Source: Comamonadaceae bacterium
GTDB taxonomy: Bacteria > Pseudomonadota > Gammaproteobacteria > Burkholderiales > Burkholderiaceae_C
Reading direction: 5' to 3'
Assembly (NCBI GenBank): GCA_947448325.1
Contig: CANFMK010000003.1
Span: 1 to 39,919, forward strand
Length of the DNA stretch: 39,919 nucleotides
In this document: positions 2,970-23,290 of the stretch, one piece after another
Layout: each line of letters opens with the position of its first letter
Numbering within the stretch: the stretch's first letter is position 1
Made by a program: the position numbers and the translations under genes
Notes under the pieces: model-generated
Told to the model about the DNA's origin: nothing
Databases searched by the model: none
The model's input: the letters and a program-made list of their open reading frames with translations, nothing else

Positions 2970-3250
2970 CTACTGTTTATTCATGTGACCCGAAGCTGAA
3001 ACAGCATTCTGGGATTTGAGTCAATCACATTGTCACCCCAAGACGTTGTACGCACTTTGGAACGAACTTGCCGTGTGATTTCATTTTTTTGACACTTTAA
3101 ATGTAATTAGTAGTTTTATCAATTAAATTTTAAAAAATATTCAACCCCTTTTCGGTGCACCCCCAACAGCTCACATGAAAAGGTGACAGCTTGTTCAAAA
3201 CAATCGTGATTGAATGATCCACACATCAAGCACTACAAGGAACGAACAGC
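2970..3250. promoter_or_regulatory. AT-rich divergent intergenic region
   Basis: This 281-base gap separates the leftward cluster starting at 2969 from the rightward SDR gene starting at 3251. It is strikingly AT-rich at 3080-3145 compared with its surroundings. On the minus strand, TTGAAT (3144-3139) and GATAAA (3120-3115) with an 18-base spacer could form a sigma-70-type promoter for the cluster. On the plus strand a TTGACA at 3089-3094 lacks a good partner. No coding sequence or RNA gene is seen here. Confidence 0.35.
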
Positions 3251-17339: not shown

Positions 17340-17999
17340 TTAAGGTTTGACGTGTCTATTTCGCGTCAACAACAGGGCCACCAAAAGCAACACCAAAGGC
17401 ACAAGCACGCTCAGATCCAGCACCAACCCACCCCGGGTGGGTACGGCCACGTTCTTGGCCAGCGCAGCAAATTTGTGCGGTGAGCCGGCCTTGAAATCAG
17501 GGTCCAGGATCATGTCCAGCATGTCGCGCCGACTGCGGTATCGGACAATGCCGATTTCTTGAAAGAAGTCTGCACCGGGTCCTGCTTCGTTGAGGAATCC
17601 GGCAATTTTGCTGGAGGTAAATACCGGGTAACTGCCTCGCCGCAACAGATGCGGCAGCACCAACCGAACATAGGCATCGTTGGCGTCAGCGCCCGTGACA
17701 ATACCAGGGCGTGTGACACCACCCGGATAGACTGCGCGATCGGCATACAACATCAGGTTGAGGTTGTAGAACGGCTTGCCATCATCGGTTGAAAAAAAGG
17801 ACCTGATGGCTTGTTTTTCTTCATTGGACACCTGCTGATTCGCGTCCATGCCCTTGAATGCTATTTCGAGCTCACTGGCCGTCAAAGGCGTTTGAAACCA
17901 AGGTTCATGCCACAGCAGAAAAAGACCATAAACCGCAGTCACAGCCATCCAAATCCAACGTGAAAAATCAGCAGAAATCGAATTCGATTTGTTCGACAT
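17340..17999 (-). CDS. Membrane-anchored protein of unknown function, paralogue of 20061-20702
   Basis: A 219-residue protein with an N-terminal transmembrane helix (about residues 16-32) and a C-terminal one (about 193-213), so it is anchored at both ends. The middle domain shares with the protein at 20061-20702 an I-R-x-F-F-x-x-D-D-G-x-x-F-x-x-x-N-L segment and a strict R-Y-R-S-R-R-D-M motif followed by x-D-P-x-x-K. The strand-helix pattern resembles dimeric alpha-beta barrel (ABM/DUF1330-like) proteins, which is inference. The ATG at 17999 has AAAGG upstream; an ATG at 18023 would lie inside the palindromic operator at 18018-18034, so I prefer 17999. It is divergent from the TetR-family gene and likely controlled by it. 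Function unknown. Confidence 0.7.
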   Translation of the reverse strand: MSNKSNSISADFSRWIWMAVTAVYGLFLLWHEPWFQTPLTASELEIAFKGMDANQQVSNEEKQAIRSFFSTDDGKPFYNLNLMLYADRAVYPGGVTRPGIVTGADANDAYVRLVLPHLLRRGSYPVFTSSKIAGFLNEAGPGADFFQEIGIVRYRSRRDMLDMILDPDFKAGSPHKFAALAKNVAVPTRGGLVLDLSVLVPLVLLLVALLLTRNRHVKP

Positions 18000-18017: not shown

Positions 18018-18034
18018 TGGCATTTATAGTGCCA
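18018..18034. promoter_or_regulatory. TetR-type operator, site A
   Basis: The 17-mer TGGCATTTATAGTGCCA has TGGCA/TGCCA arms. It matches sites B and C in the core T-A-T-A-G-T-G-C-C-A. It lies 18 bases upstream of the ATG at 17999 and 86 bases upstream of the divergent TetR-family gene. On the minus strand it contains TATAAA (18028-18023), a likely -10 element. Confidence 0.65.
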
Positions 18035-18120
18035 TATCATTCAAGCTAAAATAAATTGTCGTTTACCCTGACACGAATGAAGACACCCTCATTCAGGTCT
18101 TACCGCAGCGCCCTCCCCAT

Positions 18121-18717
18121 ATGCCTCGTTCGCGCACACCCACAGCCAAGCCTCCCAAGTCCGATGGACGCGTGCATCGCAGCGTCGTCACACGCGAAAA
18201 AATTGTCAACGCTTTGACAGCGCTGATTTACGAAGGTCATCTGTCCCCCACTGCAGAACAAGTCGCCCAAAGGGCTGATATTGGACTGCGAACCGTCTTT
18301 CGGCATTTCGATGACATGGATTCGCTGTACCGTGAAATCAACACCGAACTGGAAAACCAGTTCCTGCCCATGCAAAGCGTGCGCTTGACAGGCGAGACCT
18401 GGCAGGACCGACTTTTGCATTGCATTGAACTTCGCACAGCGTTTTACGACCAGTTTGCGGCCATCCACCTGGCAGGGCAGGTGCATCGCCATGATTCGTC
18501 CTATGTCACTGAAAACATGATGCGCGCTGTGTCCCAACAACGCGAACTGTTGATGAAAATTTTGCCTGCATCTGTGCGGTCCAACGCAGTGGTTTTTGAA
18601 GCTCTTGACCTGTTGATCAGCATGGACTGCTGGATTCGTTTACGGCGCGATCAGGGCTTGTCAGCCGCCCAAGCAAGGGACGTTTTAAATCAGAGTGTGC
18701 AGGCTCTTATTGCCTGA
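18121..18717 (+). CDS. TetR/AcrR-family transcriptional regulator
   Basis: A 198-residue regulator. A basic, proline-rich tail (residues 1-20) precedes a TetR helix-turn-helix at about 24-70: R-E-K-I-V-N-A-L-T-A-L-I, then P-T-A-E-Q-V-A-Q-R-A-D-I-G-L-R-T-V-F-R-H-F. The last segment is the recognition helix and the conserved V-F-R/Y-x-F end. The C-terminal helical ligand domain is unlike any I can name. The effector is unknown; because a long-chain acyl-CoA ligase is in the presumed regulon, a fatty acid or acyl-CoA is plausible. It lies between operator sites A and B, and probably represses itself and the three surrounding units. No clear ribosome-binding site precedes the ATG. Confidence 0.85.
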   Translation: MPRSRTPTAKPPKSDGRVHRSVVTREKIVNALTALIYEGHLSPTAEQVAQRADIGLRTVFRHFDDMDSLYREINTELENQFLPMQSVRLTGETWQDRLLHCIELRTAFYDQFAAIHLAGQVHRHDSSYVTENMMRAVSQQRELLMKILPASVRSNAVVFEALDLLISMDCWIRLRRDQGLSAAQARDVLNQSVQALIA

Positions 18718-18753
18718 ACACCATAGGTCGGCACACCATCGCAGTTCAATTTC

Positions 18754-18798
18754 AGGATAAACCCTAGGTTGACTTTGGCTAAAAATGACACTTATAGT
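18754..18798 (+). promoter_or_regulatory. Likely promoter of the dehalogenase-like gene with upstream box
   Basis: A -35-like TTGACT (18769-18774) and a -10-like TATAGT (18793-18798) are separated by 18 bases. Directly upstream, one base from the -35, is AGGATAAACCCTAG (18754-18767). The same box with one change abuts the likely -35 of the 22952 operon. The box is nearly palindromic and could bind an activator encoded elsewhere. Confidence 0.55.
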
Positions 18799-18802
18799 GC
18801 CA
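18786..18802. promoter_or_regulatory. TetR-type operator, site B
   Basis: The 17-mer TGACACTTATAGTGCCA has 7-base arms with six of seven pairs matched around a TAT centre. It covers the likely -10 element and lies 56 bases upstream of the ATG at 18859. It differs from site C only in the central base triplet (TAT against CAT). Confidence 0.75.
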
Positions 18803-18858
18803 TTACTTTGGATGCGACATGAACTGCGTGCCAACACCCCCCTTCAAACGATAAGCCT

Positions 18859-20061
18859 ATGCAGATCCTATGCACACCTGATTCCCAGTTTGAAGGCTTG
18901 CCCGAGTGGCCCTTTGAACCTCACTACACTACCATCACGGCCGACGACGACACCCCTATTCGGATCGCACATGCAGAGCTAGGCCCCGTGGACGGCGAAC
19001 CTATTTTGCTGATGCATGGCAATCCCAGTTGGTCTTACTTGCATCGCCACATGATGGCCCCTCTGGCCGCCACTGGGCGGCGTGTGATTGCCGTGGATTT
19101 GGTTGGCCATGGTCGTTCAGACAAACCCGCCTCCAAGGACGACTACACGCTGGCTCGCCATGTCGATTGGATGTCCAAGTGGTTGATCGCGATGGACCTG
19201 CAGCACACCACGCTGTACTGCCAGGACTGGGGCGGCACCATTGGGCTGCACTTGGTCGCCAACTTTTCCGAGCGCTTTGACCGGGTGGCCGTCTCCAACA
19301 GTGGTATGCCGCTGGGTGACCGCTCGAACTGGTTTCTCAAGCTGTGGACTAATTTAATGGGACGCGCGACGCGCTTCCCATGGTTCATTTTCAAACCGGG
19401 CTTTGCCAAACCCATTAGCGATACGACCTATCTGGCTTACCGCGCACCGTACCCCACAGCGGCTTACGAAAAAGGTCCGGCTAAATTCCCTGTGCTTATC
19501 GCCGTGACGCCGGATAACCCAGGGGTGCCGCTCAACCGTGCTGCTTGGGCCAAGCTCAAGACTTTTGATAAGCCATTCCTCACACTCTACGGTGCCAAGG
19601 ACGTTGTTGCTACTGGTGCCGATGCGCGCTTGCAGAAGCACATCCCAGGCGCTGCAGGCCAAGCTCTCAAAGCCGCAGCGCCTGAAGGCATTGATCTTTA
19701 TTTCGACAATGTCGGCGGCGAGATTTTGGATGCAGTGTTGCTGCAAATCAACCGTCACGCCCGCATCGTCGTGTGCGGCGGAATCTCTCAATACCTCGAT
19801 ATTGAGCAGGTACGTGGTCCCGCCAATTACCTGCAACTGATCGCGCAAAGTGCAACGATGCAGGGCTTTACCATGCGCGACTACATGAGCCGCGTTCCTG
19901 AAGCCTTCATGGCACTGGCCGGATGGCACGCCAAAGGTGAGGTCAAATTCCGCGACCATGTGCTGCAGGGCATAGAGTCTTTTCCGCAAGCCTTTGACAT
20001 GTTGTTCAAGGGTGCCAACCAAGGCAAGTTGCTCATTGAACTCGCATCGGAGGCTGCATGA
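18859..20061 (+). CDS. Chimeric protein: haloalkane-dehalogenase-like N-terminus fused to PTGR/CurA-like oxidoreductase C-terminus
   Basis: One 400-residue frame holds parts of two unrelated enzymes. Residues 1-268 read as a haloalkane dehalogenase of the alpha/beta-hydrolase fold: H-G-N-P-S-W-S-Y (53-60, oxyanion and halide side), nucleophile D123 in C-Q-D-W-G-G, G-H-G-R-S-D-K-P, and an acid D248 in L-Y-G-A-K-D. The dehalogenase stops in I-P-G-A-A-G-Q, just where family members go on to the catalytic histidine (G-x-G-H-F), so that histidine is missing. From about 269 the sequence is the C-terminal third of a zinc-free MDR reductase (G-I-D-L-Y-F-D-N-V-G-G-E, G-P-A-N-Y, G-K-L-L-I-E-L), without its GroES-like domain or the NADPH-binding glycine motif. 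Both halves therefore look catalytically incomplete. A real deletion fusion, a decaying gene, or an assembly join are all possible. The codon frame is intact throughout. Confidence 0.8.
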   Translation: MQILCTPDSQFEGLPEWPFEPHYTTITADDDTPIRIAHAELGPVDGEPILLMHGNPSWSYLHRHMMAPLAATGRRVIAVDLVGHGRSDKPASKDDYTLARHVDWMSKWLIAMDLQHTTLYCQDWGGTIGLHLVANFSERFDRVAVSNSGMPLGDRSNWFLKLWTNLMGRATRFPWFIFKPGFAKPISDTTYLAYRAPYPTAAYEKGPAKFPVLIAVTPDNPGVPLNRAAWAKLKTFDKPFLTLYGAKDVVATGADARLQKHIPGAAGQALKAAAPEGIDLYFDNVGGEILDAVLLQINRHARIVVCGGISQYLDIEQVRGPANYLQLIAQSATMQGFTMRDYMSRVPEAFMALAGWHAKGEVKFRDHVLQGIESFPQAFDMLFKGANQGKLLIELASEAA

Positions 20062-20702
20062 TGGTGGGTGCTTGGTGGGCTTGGTGTGTGGCGCTGGCAC
20101 TTTACGTGCTCTTTCGACTTTGGTACGACAACTGGCGTGGCCCCTTGACCCAAGACGAAATCGACATGTTCATGGCCAAGGCCGAAGAAACGAAGATGGG
20201 CGAATACAGTGACCCCGCCGTTGTGCGCGCCTTTTTGGAAGCAGACGACGGACGCGAATTCATCATGAGCAATTTGGTGGGCTTGCATACCGGGGATGTA
20301 CCCCATCCTGTCACAGGCATTCCGACCAAAGGCCTGGCGCTGCTTCAGGAGTACAGCCAACGCTTCATCAAGGTGCTGCTGCAACATGGGGGTCACCCGA
20401 TGTTGGCGATGCGCAAGGTGGGTGGTTACGTGGATGACTGGAACACACCACCAGACCCTGGCTGGCATGTGGTGGGTGCCATGCGCTACCGCAGTCGGCG
20501 CGACATGATGGCGCTGGCCACTGACCCTGCTCTGAAAGATGTGCACCCCCTCAAAACGGCAGCAACGGCTGTGACATTTTCTTTCCCGACGCAAGTCATT
20601 GTGGGATTTGCTTTGCGTCCACGCGCGTGGGTGGCTTTGGTGTTGGCCTTGTTCGCTGCGTTGACGCACCTGGCCAGCGTGATCGCCCTGCTGAAACCCT
20701 AA
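20061..20702 (+). CDS. Membrane-anchored protein of unknown function, paralogue of 17340-17999
   Basis: A 213-residue protein with an N-terminal transmembrane helix (about residues 4-20) and a C-terminal hydrophobic pair (about 170-210). The central domain carries F-L-E-A-D-D-G-R-E-F-I-M-S-N-L, a G-G-H/K-V-G-G region, then A-M-R-Y-R-S-R-R-D-M and T-D-P-A-L-K-D, matching the paralogue at 17340-17999. The layout resembles dimeric alpha-beta barrel domains; this is inference. The ATG at 20061 shares one base with the stop of the chimeric gene (TGATG), and GGAGG at 20049-20053 gives a seven-base spacing. An ATG at 20058 is less well spaced. The overlap means the two genes form one operon downstream of site B. 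Function unknown. Confidence 0.72.
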   Translation: MVGAWWAWCVALALYVLFRLWYDNWRGPLTQDEIDMFMAKAEETKMGEYSDPAVVRAFLEADDGREFIMSNLVGLHTGDVPHPVTGIPTKGLALLQEYSQRFIKVLLQHGGHPMLAMRKVGGYVDDWNTPPDPGWHVVGAMRYRSRRDMMALATDPALKDVHPLKTAATAVTFSFPTQVIVGFALRPRAWVALVLALFAALTHLASVIALLKP

Positions 20703-20771
20703 TCTCCGAAGATGCAGATGGGCGGACACTTCTGAAAAAAAGACTACCCCTACGCTATTGAGGATGAAAGC

Positions 20772-22442
20772 TTAGGCGCGATCACGCAACTCGCGGCGCA
20801 GAACTTTGCCCACTGGGCTCTTGGGCAGTTCATTCAAAAACTCCACTTCGCGCGGTATTTTGTAGGCGGTGAGATTTTCACGGCAATGCGAGATCAGCAT
20901 CGCCTCGGTCAGCGCTGGCGATTTTTTGACCACAAAGATCTTGATCTTTTCTCCCGTGTCTTCGCTCTTTTTACCCACGGCAGCCACCTCCAGCACGCCA
21001 GGGTGCGTCATGACCACTTCTTCGATTTCATTGGGGTAGACATTGAAGCCAGAGACCAAAATCATGTCCTTGATCCGGTCTACGATCTTCATGTAGCCGT
21101 CGCTCTCCATGACGGCGATATCGCCGGTGCGCAAGAAGCCATCCACCGTCATGACGGCTGCCGTTTCTTGGGGGCGCTGCCAGTAGCCTTTCATGACCTG
21201 GGGGCCGCGCACACACAATTCGCCAGACTGACCGATCGGCAGTTCTACGCCCTCTTCGTTGCGGATGGACACTTCGGTAGACGGCAAGGGAAACCCAATG
21301 CCGCCTCGAAATTCTGGGGTGTTGTAGGGATTGACGCTGACAGTGGGGGAGCATTCCGTCAGGCCAAAGCCTTCGAGCAAGGGCTTGCCCGTGACCTGCT
21401 GCCACTGCTCGGCGACAGCGCGCTGTGTCGCGGCACCACCACCCACACCAAAAATCAGCTTGCTGAAGTCGAGTTTGGCAAAGTGTGGATCGTTCAATAA
21501 GCCAATGAACAGTGTGTTGACCGCTGGCAAGCTGGCGAATTTGTACTTGGACAAGACTTTGACAAAAGCGGGGATGTTGCGCGGATCGGAAACCAGCACA
21601 TTCGTGCCTCCCGAATTGAGACCGCTGATGCAGGTGCCCAAGGCATAGATGTGGTACAGCGGAATGGCCGTGATGCCAATCATGGCCTCGGACTTGTCAA
21701 TGACAGGGTCAAACCAGACCCTGCCCTGCTCCACGTTGGCCAGCACGTTACGGTGCGTCAACATCGCGCCTTTAGAAACACCGGTTGTGCCGCCTGTGTA
21801 TTGCAGAAAAGCCAGATCGTCGGCCTCGAAGGTCACAGGGCGAAAGGCGGCCTGGGAACCCAAAGCCACCGCGTCTCGCAAGCCTGTGCTGCCAGGCAAG
21901 TTATAGGCAGGAACTGCTTTTTTAACTTGGCGAATCAAAAAGTTGCCAATCACCCGCTTGGCCCACGGCATCATGTCGGTCAATGCGGTGACGATGACGT
22001 GCTTGACCGATGTGGAGGCGATCACTTTGGCCAGTGTGTGGGCAAACACCTCCACCACGATCATCGCCTCGGCGCCCGAGTCTTTGAGTTGGTGCTCCAA
22101 TTCGCGTGGCGTGTACATGGGGTTGACATTGACCACCACGTAGCCTGCGCGCAGCAGCCCGAACAGGCAGACCGGGTATTGCAACAGGTTGGGCATCATC
22201 AGCGCCACCCGCGTGCCTTTGGGAAGCTTCAACACCGACTGGAAATAGGCCGCCACCTGCAAGCTCAAAATATCGAGCTCTTGGTAAGTCAGTGCCACAT
22301 CGGTGGTGCCGCTGATGAAAGCCTTGCGCTCTGGGTAATTCGCACAGGCCGTGTCAACGTAATCGGAAATAGAGCCCAGTGCGTTGGCATCGATTTCGTG
22401 CGGAACACCGGGAGGGTAGCTCTTCAGCCAGATCTTATCCAT
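20772..22442 (-). CDS. fadD: Long-chain fatty acid-CoA ligase family protein
   Basis: A 556-residue AMP-forming acyl-CoA synthetase. The ATP/phosphate loop Y-T-G-G-T-T-G-V-S-K-G (215-225) is followed by the A-M-L-T-H-R-N family segment. Further motifs are G-F-G-L-T-E-C-S-P (A5), T-G-D-I-A (A7), R-I-K-D-M-I-L-V-S-G-F-N-V-Y-P-N-E-I-E (A8) and a C-terminal P-K-S-P-V-G-K-V-L-R-R-E-L with the catalytic lysine (A10). Length and motifs are those of FadD, which activates fatty acids to acyl-CoA in two steps. It lies 63 bases downstream of the four-helix membrane protein gene and probably shares its promoter with operator site C. Its natural substrate could be a specialised acid rather than a housekeeping fatty acid. 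AGAGG precedes the ATG. Confidence 0.9.
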   Translation of the reverse strand: MDKIWLKSYPPGVPHEIDANALGSISDYVDTACANYPERKAFISGTTDVALTYQELDILSLQVAAYFQSVLKLPKGTRVALMMPNLLQYPVCLFGLLRAGYVVVNVNPMYTPRELEHQLKDSGAEAMIVVEVFAHTLAKVIASTSVKHVIVTALTDMMPWAKRVIGNFLIRQVKKAVPAYNLPGSTGLRDAVALGSQAAFRPVTFEADDLAFLQYTGGTTGVSKGAMLTHRNVLANVEQGRVWFDPVIDKSEAMIGITAIPLYHIYALGTCISGLNSGGTNVLVSDPRNIPAFVKVLSKYKFASLPAVNTLFIGLLNDPHFAKLDFSKLIFGVGGGAATQRAVAEQWQQVTGKPLLEGFGLTECSPTVSVNPYNTPEFRGGIGFPLPSTEVSIRNEEGVELPIGQSGELCVRGPQVMKGYWQRPQETAAVMTVDGFLRTGDIAVMESDGYMKIVDRIKDMILVSGFNVYPNEIEEVVMTHPGVLEVAAVGKKSEDTGEKIKIFVVKKSPALTEAMLISHCRENLTAYKIPREVEFLNELPKSPVGKVLRRELRDRA

Positions 22443-22505
22443 TGCGCTGAGCCTCTAATTGAGGGTTTGAGGAAAAGTGAAGAAAATCATTGGCCAAAAG
22501 ATGGC

Positions 22506-22952
22506 TCAATGCCCATGGCGCGGCTGACGCAAAGACAGCACCAAAAACAAAAGCGACAAGACAAGAATGACGTAAGTCCCATAGGCACCCGGAGGCGCAG
22601 TCTCGACCTGCAAGGGTTTCAAGTAACCGGCCAACAAGCGCAACAACTGCTCTAAGGCCAACAAAGCCAACATCGCAGGGACCAAAAAACGATAGCGCAG
22701 TACGACTGCCCACTGCACGCAGGCCAAGAGCAATTGGCTGGCACCCCATTGCGAAAATATGGCCACGATATTCGGTCCGCCTGCGACATCGAGCGCGATG
22801 TGCGCAATGCTACCTGCGCCGCCATCAGGCGCCAACAAGTGCACGCCGCTGCGAACCGTGCTGACCAAAGTGATTAAAGCCAAAAACCGGAAAGCCCAGG
22901 CTGATCCCGTGTAACTCAATTTCGGGCGAGGCAGCAATGCGTTCAAAGACAT
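22506..22952 (-). CDS. Four-helix integral membrane protein of unknown function
   Basis: A 148-residue hydrophobic protein with about four transmembrane helices (roughly residues 19-36, 60-80, 85-110 and 124-142). The loop between the first two contains H-L-L-A-P-D-G-G-A-G-S-I-A, and the third helix region contains A-L-E-Q-L-L-R-L. I do not recognise a family. No good ribosome-binding site precedes the ATG at 22952. GAGGAG further upstream instead precedes a 14-codon TTG-started frame (22987-22943) that overlaps this start, so translation might depend on coupling. It is the first gene after operator site C and is followed by the acyl-CoA ligase gene. Confidence 0.6.
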   Translation of the reverse strand: MSLNALLPRPKLSYTGSAWAFRFLALITLVSTVRSGVHLLAPDGGAGSIAHIALDVAGGPNIVAIFSQWGASQLLLACVQWAVVLRYRFLVPAMLALLALEQLLRLLAGYLKPLQVETAPPGAYGTYVILVLSLLFLVLSLRQPRHGH

Positions 22953-23031
22953 GGGACGACTTGGCGCAGTGGATGAAGGTCTGACAAGTTGAGCTCCTCA
23001 TTTCCAAAAAATGTTCAACCACGGTTTATAT

Positions 23032-23048
23032 TGACACTCATAGTGCCA
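23032..23048. promoter_or_regulatory. TetR-type operator, site C
   Basis: The 17-mer TGACACTCATAGTGCCA matches site B at 16 of 17 positions. It lies 79 bases upstream of the ATG at 22952 and on the minus strand covers a likely -10 element TATGAG (23042-23037). Confidence 0.75.
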
Positions 23049-23213: not shown

Positions 23214-23290
23214 TGGTAGGCGCGATTGGACTCGAACCAACGACCCCCACCATGTCAAGGTGGTGCTCTAACCAGCTGAGCTACGCGCCT
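23214..23290 (-). tRNA. tRNA-Val (anticodon GAC)
   Basis: The minus strand folds as a complete cloverleaf of 77 bases. The acceptor stem pairs AGGCGCG with CGCGCCT, followed by A and an encoded CCA. The D-arm is GCTC-AGCTGGTTA-GAGC, the anticodon stem CCACC/GGTGG encloses TTGACAT with anticodon GAC, and the T-arm is GTTGG-TTCGAGT-CCAAT. A -10-like TATGAT lies at 23313-23308. It decodes GUC and GUU valine codons. It sits 80 bases behind relA on the same strand. Confidence 0.97.

Follow-up and report, generated by a model that had tools for sequence, protein, structure and literature searches.

DhaR is a TetR repressor of haloalkane use, and LaoR of the LaoABCR system of Pseudomonas aeruginosa is also a TetR repressor; our search of the open-licence literature did not find LaoR. 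The LaoABCR system is named in the report on the SLF module of the Psychrobacter plasmid pP62BP1, which mentions haloalkane dehalogenase and TetR once each (PMC10779009). This module, slfR-slfCHSL, consists of five genes encoding an AraC/XylS-type regulator, an aldehyde oxidoreductase, an alcohol dehydrogenase, an alkyl sulfatase and an acyl-CoA synthetase, and this sodium dodecyl sulfate (SDS) operon is induced by lauryl aldehyde, which arises once the sulfate has been taken off (PMC10779009). Here we describe a TetR-family gene surrounded by three copies of a 17-bp palindrome in a 39,919-nucleotide stretch of DNA, hereafter the window, which is contig C3 (CANFMK010000003.1) of a Comamonadaceae bacterium genome. 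Comparison with related loci suggests, with a probability of about 0.68, that this TetR represses three promoters and belongs to a subfamily controlling islands for the breakdown of sulfated, lipophilic, probably halogenated compounds. No published name for such a regulon was found in the literature searches.

The three palindromes reported in the initial annotation, TGGCATTTATAGTGCCA (18018–18034), TGACACTTATAGTGCCA (18786–18802) and TGACACTCATAGTGCCA (23032–23048), are all present, and they precede three separate units. Predicted operator 1 lies between gene A on the minus strand and the divergent TetR gene on the plus strand, and fits the motif found de novo in relatives; predicted operator 2 is upstream of a dehalogenase-reductase fusion gene followed by gene B (plus strand); and predicted operator 3 is upstream of the genes for the hydrophobic protein M4 and a FadD-type acyl-CoA ligase (minus strand). 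In the window, eight strand-matches to TGRCAYTNATAGTGCCA with at most three mismatches were found versus 1.04 expected, a number reached in none of 100 shuffles; the palindromes supply six of the eight because each is read on both strands. The motif scan of the whole genome (264 contigs totalling 2,916,477 bases; completeness 94.6%), which the initial annotation had called for, returned exact matches to TGRCAYTNATAGTGCCA at the three window sites only. With up to three mismatches there were 52 matches (23 forward, 29 reverse) compared to 42 (20 and 22) for the reversed control pattern, so that the looser matches are mostly background. The suggestion that the sites overlap -10 elements held for site 2 only, where a promoter-like sequence TTGACT-18-TATAGT (10/12 match) places the TATAGT hexamer within the palindrome. 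At site 1 only the first hexamer of a 9/12 promoter match lies inside the palindrome, and for site 3 the promoter scan gave no match; overall, the scan yielded 4 promoter-like matches versus 3.1 in shuffles. Directly beyond operator 3 there is a tRNA-Val gene (23214–23290); tRNA genes are common integration points.

Relatives of the TetR protein are encoded in 189 stretches of the species collection; the 80 best loci were retained and pooled with the window and 8 loci from the G genomes, giving 89 loci; L108, L111, L112, L114 and L116 were excluded from the pool because they duplicate contigs already in the species-collection set. A nonredundant set with mutual protein identity below 85% comprised 56 loci, or 55 without the window. 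Burkholderiales records among the best 80 loci are mostly metagenome genomes with isolate codes, many of which we take to come from lake projects; the species-collection loci L087 and L045 belong to the cultured strains Sphingopyxis terrae NBRC 15098 and Limnobacter humi NBRC 111650. Palindromic expectation-maximisation on about 400 bp upstream of the 55 TetR homologues, with the window excluded, recovered the motif TGRCAYT-NNN-ARTGYCA with a log-likelihood of 200.05, compared to 20.8, 19.0 and 18.8 for three sets with shuffled bases (mononucleotide shuffling; 150 of 165 seeds were run for the real set and 60 per shuffled set).

A profile scan with a threshold of 15 bits detected 69 sites in the 55 loci, at least one in 50 of them, while a single copy of the loci shuffled in two-base blocks contained two. 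When a target was defined as a listed gene family no more than 450 bp downstream, with sites between divergent genes counted for both genes, 63 of the 69 sites had a target, and none lay inside a listed gene. The most frequent targets were TetR (28 sites), an outer-membrane barrel (PF13557; 14), and haloalkane dehalogenase, sulfatase B (SulfB) and sulfatase A (SulfA) with nine each, followed by protein B (8), a DsbA-like protein (7), a metallo-beta-lactamase fold protein (5) and DUF2855 (4); two glutathione S-transferase (GST) types, M4 and another TetR type (cl13) had two sites each, and cl12 had one. Since the profile was trained on TetR-upstream DNA, the 41 sites in 36 loci that fall outside the 420 bp before TetR constitute the independent part of this evidence. 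The exact operator 1 of the window reappears in L027 (L027:375), preceding a one-strand run of genes for a B homologue (74% identical), a GST, SulfA and TetR (57% identical), and sites are found 42 bp and 434 bp upstream of the M4 homologues in L050 and L040, respectively. Altogether, the TetR regulon proposed in the initial annotation has gained comparative support, since the same motif emerges de novo from the 55 homologues and stands before the same kinds of genes. Judging from these comparisons, the assignment of TGRCAYT-NNN-ARTGYCA as the operator of this TetR subfamily appears close to certain.

The regulator itself (18121–18717, plus strand) is a 198-aa protein which matches the TetR protein 2of7 in the PDB with an E-value of 5.3e-6. 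Its predicted DNA-reading helix, residues G55 to M66 (GLRTVFRHFDDM), is conserved at 0.82–1.0 across the 56 homologues; mean conservation is 0.79 at residues 46–75 versus 0.49 at residues 76–198. This pattern fits a single operator shared by many regulators that may sense different ligands.

The specificity of the association was assessed within the genus, using 90 genomes including the own genome. At an E-value of 1e-10 or better the TetR was matched in 12 of the 90, that is, in 11 of the 89 others. The 30-residue N-terminus of the dehalogenase found 31 places in 29 of these genomes, at least 24 of which have a PF00884 sulfatase within 8 kb among the sulfatase matches listed, and 16 of the 24 are in genomes without a match to this TetR. 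Seven of these 16 TetR-less places were examined (L157–L163): in six of them nothing scores as high as 14 bits, and in all seven no site is located upstream of the listed genes, the single 15.4-bit match in L159 lying inside a cl13 gene. The L157–L163 islands carry another TetR gene, this cl13, which could represent a second control system for the same genes.

One further candidate site in the window was kept out of the regulon. The sequence TGACACTTTAAATGTAA at 3090–3106 scores 17.8 bits and lies upstream of a run of one short-chain dehydrogenase/reductase (SDR) and two GST genes. It was excluded for want of conservation: among 19 other loci scored, the best upstream counterpart reached 10.1 bits (L167) and the other 18 remained below 7.

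The gene content of the 55 loci was determined by tblastn at an E-value of 1e-8, the counts being bounded by contig ends and an 8 kb flank. SulfA-type matches were found in 37 loci and SulfB-type matches in 38 (the two types cross-match), with any sulfatase in 39; homologues of a sulfatase-activating enzyme (PF03781, assigned on an L108 protein) occur in 21, haloalkane dehalogenase in 19, and a sulfatase together with a dehalogenase in 13. The two GST types are present in 21 loci each, DUF2855 in 10, and the outer-membrane barrel in 14. Matches covering the C-x-P-x-R signature contain it in 56 of 57 SulfA and all 52 SulfB sequences, the two sets sharing members; with this signature and an activating enzyme nearby, the island relatives have the features expected of formylglycine sulfatases. 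Likewise, the 22 dehalogenase relatives listed have the catalytic Asp-His-Asp and halide-binding Trp of haloalkane dehalogenases: Asp123, Trp124, Asp248 and His278 are present in all of them, and Trp163 in 19.

The window genes have counterparts in such islands. FadD (20772–22442, minus strand), downstream of M4, is a long-chain acyl-CoA ligase (PF00501, E-value 3.3e-86; NF005463, 817.5 bits, under the cut-off of 869), and its 82% identical homologue adjoins the TetR homologue in L050 and L052. These two loci combine in one island FadD (82%), M4 (62%), B (58% and 56%), dehalogenase and reductase. M4 (22506–22952, minus strand) is a 148-aa protein without a Pfam or NCBIfam match, and the loci bearing its homologues, L040, L050 and L052, hold sulfatase matches too. 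Given the gene sets of L027, L050 and L052, each unit of the window has a counterpart in a sulfatase island.

The content list of the initial annotation was right overall and required corrections concerning the domain of the membrane proteins and the nature of the dehalogenase chimera. The two membrane proteins are indeed paralogous, A being 29% identical to B. For protein B (20058–20702, plus strand), whose start overlaps the stop of the fusion gene, the structure model predicts a transmembrane helix, a ferredoxin-like, DUF1330-like domain and a second transmembrane helix, with a predicted local distance difference test score (pLDDT) of 83.1; the best solved match of the model is RPA0582 (3dca). 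Soluble island relatives match DUF1330 (PF07045), among them a protein beside a site in L066. Protein A (17340–17999, minus strand) is predicted from its alignment with B to be a membrane-anchored DUF1330-like protein. Its start is probably at 17999, because the first ATG (18023) sits within operator 1, and its homologues in L023 and L024 (80–82% identical) adjoin the outer-membrane barrel gene.

The "dehalogenase-like chimera" (18859–20061, plus strand) is an in-frame fusion of haloalkane dehalogenase residues 1 to about 270 with the C-terminal part of an NADPH-dependent double-bond reductase. In L050, L052 and L101 the two are separate genes, in the order reductase, B, dehalogenase. The fusion gene aligns to the dehalogenase of these loci up to about 19664 (78–79% DNA identity) and past this point to their reductase, collinear with B (68–69%). 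It keeps Asp123, Trp124, Trp163 and Asp248, and the catalytic His278 is lost through the fusion, leaving the dehalogenase catalytic set incomplete. The reductase is incomplete as well, only residues 206–337 of the 337-aa L101 protein being covered; the best solved match of the latter is 4b7c, followed by double-bond and related reductases. The window's own dehalogenase is, by its sequence, a fused remnant. When 93 residues around the junction were searched against 399 genomes of the family, only the own genome spanned the junction among the matches listed, and the other matches listed began at query residue 24 or later. A separate dehalogenase C-terminus or reductase N-terminus was not found at close identity in the own genome, so that both a private deletion and an assembly error are possible. 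Being in frame and keeping all checked residues except the histidine, the fusion may be recent, may function in a new way, or may reflect an assembly error.

The same genome harbours a second sulfatase-dehalogenase island. The genome has four PF00884 matches, and the two listed lie in contigs C33 (L110, L165) and C55 (L109), the ends of which overlap. C55 encodes a TetR paralogue (46–47% identical) and a dehalogenase in which all checked residues are preserved; a related site, TGACACTGAATGTGCCA, lies upstream of the paralogue and is seen in both contigs. In the own genome, the sulfatases found with this kind of TetR are those of the second island, with the TetR paralogue. A sigma-70-type factor gene (L109:5097–6029, minus strand) adjoins the dehalogenase of this island. 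Beside its sulfatase B gene lies a conserved gene, cl9 (L109:8317–9564, minus strand), also present in relatives, which encodes a beta-propeller-like protein; the cl9 member of L055 has no Pfam match. A structure model of the cl9 protein is similar to propellers like those of BamB and quinoproteins, a likeness that does not define its role.

Building on the observed sites, the conservation of motif and reading helix, and the gene association, we propose the following scheme for binding, repression, induction, the substrate and the order of steps. The TetR protein would bind TGRCAYT-NNN-ARTGYCA at the three promoters around its own gene and repress A, its own gene, the fusion gene together with B, and M4 together with FadD; release of the protein by an intermediate of the pathway would end the repression. 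The compound could enter through the outer-membrane barrel, and its sulfate would be removed by sulfatases of the formylglycine type, matured by the neighbouring activating enzyme and probably exported, as judged by eye from their hydrophobic N-termini. Dehalogenation might be performed by the haloalkane dehalogenase, perhaps with the GSTs, oxidation and reduction by the SDR and double-bond reductase enzymes, and activation of the chain by FadD, leading to beta-oxidation. The membrane-anchored proteins A and B may handle a hydrophobic intermediate at the inner membrane; M4 would be a further member. From the sulfatase context in relatives, which lay outside the view of the initial annotation, organosulfate catabolism is the likely function, and a halogenated substrate is possible.

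Several observations weigh against this reading. Neither a sulfatase nor a dehalogenase match was found in 10 of the 55 loci, and no SulfA or SulfB match is present in the window. FadD, M4 and the reductase are uncommon regulon members, with matches in 3, 2 and 3 of the 55 loci only. Five loci (L046, L051, L064, L071 and L080) have no site of 15 bits or more, and six of the 69 sites have no listed gene within 450 bp downstream. The TetR_N domain (PF00440) was matched by the regulator with an E-value of 2.8e-4 and 21 bits, under the curated cut-off of 24. The at least 24 dehalogenase-sulfatase pairings are not independent events, because the genomes are related and belong to one genus, and the closest solved sulfatase relatives, an arylsulfatase and, for SulfA of L052, the carrageenan sulfatase 6prm, give no pointer to a lipid. 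Finally, a genus scan with the exact consensus TGRCAYTNNNARTGYCA did not distinguish TetR-bearing from TetR-less genomes: matches occur in 31 of the 90, the own one included, and many of these have no TetR match, while consensus matches are absent in the TetR-bearing G252, G259, G266, G269, G278 and G279. The exact consensus was replaced by the profile analysis, being too strict for the operators of paralogues and loose enough for chance matches.

Among the alternatives, the one that survives best, although we regard it as somewhat unlikely, is that the regulon serves the use of non-halogenated alkyl or sterol sulfates, such as surfactants or algal sulfolipids, and that the dehalogenase-family enzyme acts on another substrate or represents a side activity. 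Sulfatases are the commoner partner (39 loci, compared to 19 with dehalogenase), and the SDS operon pairs an alkyl sulfatase and a fatty acyl-CoA synthetase with a repressor, lauryl aldehyde being the inducer (PMC10779009). However, the enzymes of the relatives retain the haloalkane dehalogenase catalytic set, the best solved matches of the L052 enzyme are the haloalkane dehalogenases 5esr, 6f9o and 4mj3, and at least 24 of the 31 dehalogenase places in the genus have a listed sulfatase no more than 8 kb away. It is improbable that the sulfatases merely supply sulfate during starvation, with the carbon enzymes being incidental. The best solved match of SulfB of L033 is the arylsulfatase 1hdh (444 bits over residues 24–537), and arylsulfatases of this kind are usually sulfur-regulated, which speaks for such scavenging; against it, the motif also marks sites ahead of dehalogenase, GST and DUF2855 genes, in the window FadD lies downstream of such a site, and the regulator is of the TetR kind, its ligand domain having diverged.

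A further alternative is that another factor binds the palindrome, the TetR gene being only a neighbour. Binding by the TetR is deduced from sequence, and 41 of the 69 sites do not have TetR as a target (28 do), but sites are found in 50 of the 55 TetR loci versus none upstream of the listed genes in the seven TetR-less islands, and the reading helix is conserved together with the motif; we consider such a factor highly improbable. Chance palindromes in intergenic DNA, for which one could cite the 31 of 90 genus genomes with at least one TGRCAYTNNNARTGYCA match when only 12 have the TetR, are a practically negligible explanation, already disfavoured by the motif and target analyses, given that all three exact copies in the genome fall within about 5 kb and that the relatives yield the same motif de novo.

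Returning to the reading of TetR-controlled islands for sulfated, lipophilic compounds, one could ask which natural substrate combines these chemical features. Chlorosulfolipids are polychlorinated alkyl sulfates of golden algae. The first description came from Ochromonas danica, a freshwater chrysophyte, and a later one from Poterioochromonas malhamensis (PMC13413282). A long chain bearing both sulfate and chlorine would require sulfatases and dehalogenases as well as a fatty acyl-CoA ligase for its breakdown. We tentatively put forward, and regard as rather unlikely, a dedicated pathway for the consumption of chlorosulfolipids by bacteria, many of them from freshwater, in which sulfatases would take off the sulfates, dehalogenases and GSTs the chlorines, and FadD would pass the chain on to fatty-acid oxidation. 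In the open-licence literature, bacterial degradation of chlorosulfolipids was not found by title or abstract opening, and neither DUF2855 paired with a sulfatase nor a freshwater gene cluster of haloalkane dehalogenase and arylsulfatase was found. Poorly annotated genes (those for the DUF1330-like membrane proteins, DUF2855, M4 and the beta-propeller protein) would come together in one candidate regulon, whose operator can be read from sequence and used to predict members in further genomes. The regulon speaks for the turnover of organosulfates, possibly of organochlorines, and offers a direct way to test which organisms degrade natural polychlorinated sulfolipids.

The likeness to DhaR and LaoR is one of role, the regulation of a related catabolic step. 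The central domain of B shares, in its model, the fold of DUF1330 and dimeric alpha-beta barrel proteins such as RPA0582 (3dca), but B, and A by alignment, carry a predicted transmembrane helix on each side. As in the haloalkane dehalogenases 5esr, 6f9o, 4mj3 and 1edb, the island relatives keep the nucleophile Asp, halide Trp, acid Asp and base His, whereas the window copy stops short of the His and continues as part of a reductase. SulfB of L033 is like the arylsulfatase 1hdh, presumably AtsA of Pseudomonas aeruginosa, in its match and its C-x-P-x-R signature; unlike 1hdh, the island sulfatases sit in multi-enzyme islands beside the TetR and its motif. Compared to the compact SLF module, the window regulator is TetR-like rather than AraC/XylS-type, the window genes are in both orientations, and the window has no SulfA or SulfB match of its own. 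The two systems appear alike in that one repressor governs sulfatase and redox-enzyme genes along with a fatty acyl-CoA synthetase gene, all serving organosulfate catabolism, and by analogy with the Psychrobacter SDS operon it is plausible that here, too, a product formed after desulfation acts as the inducer.

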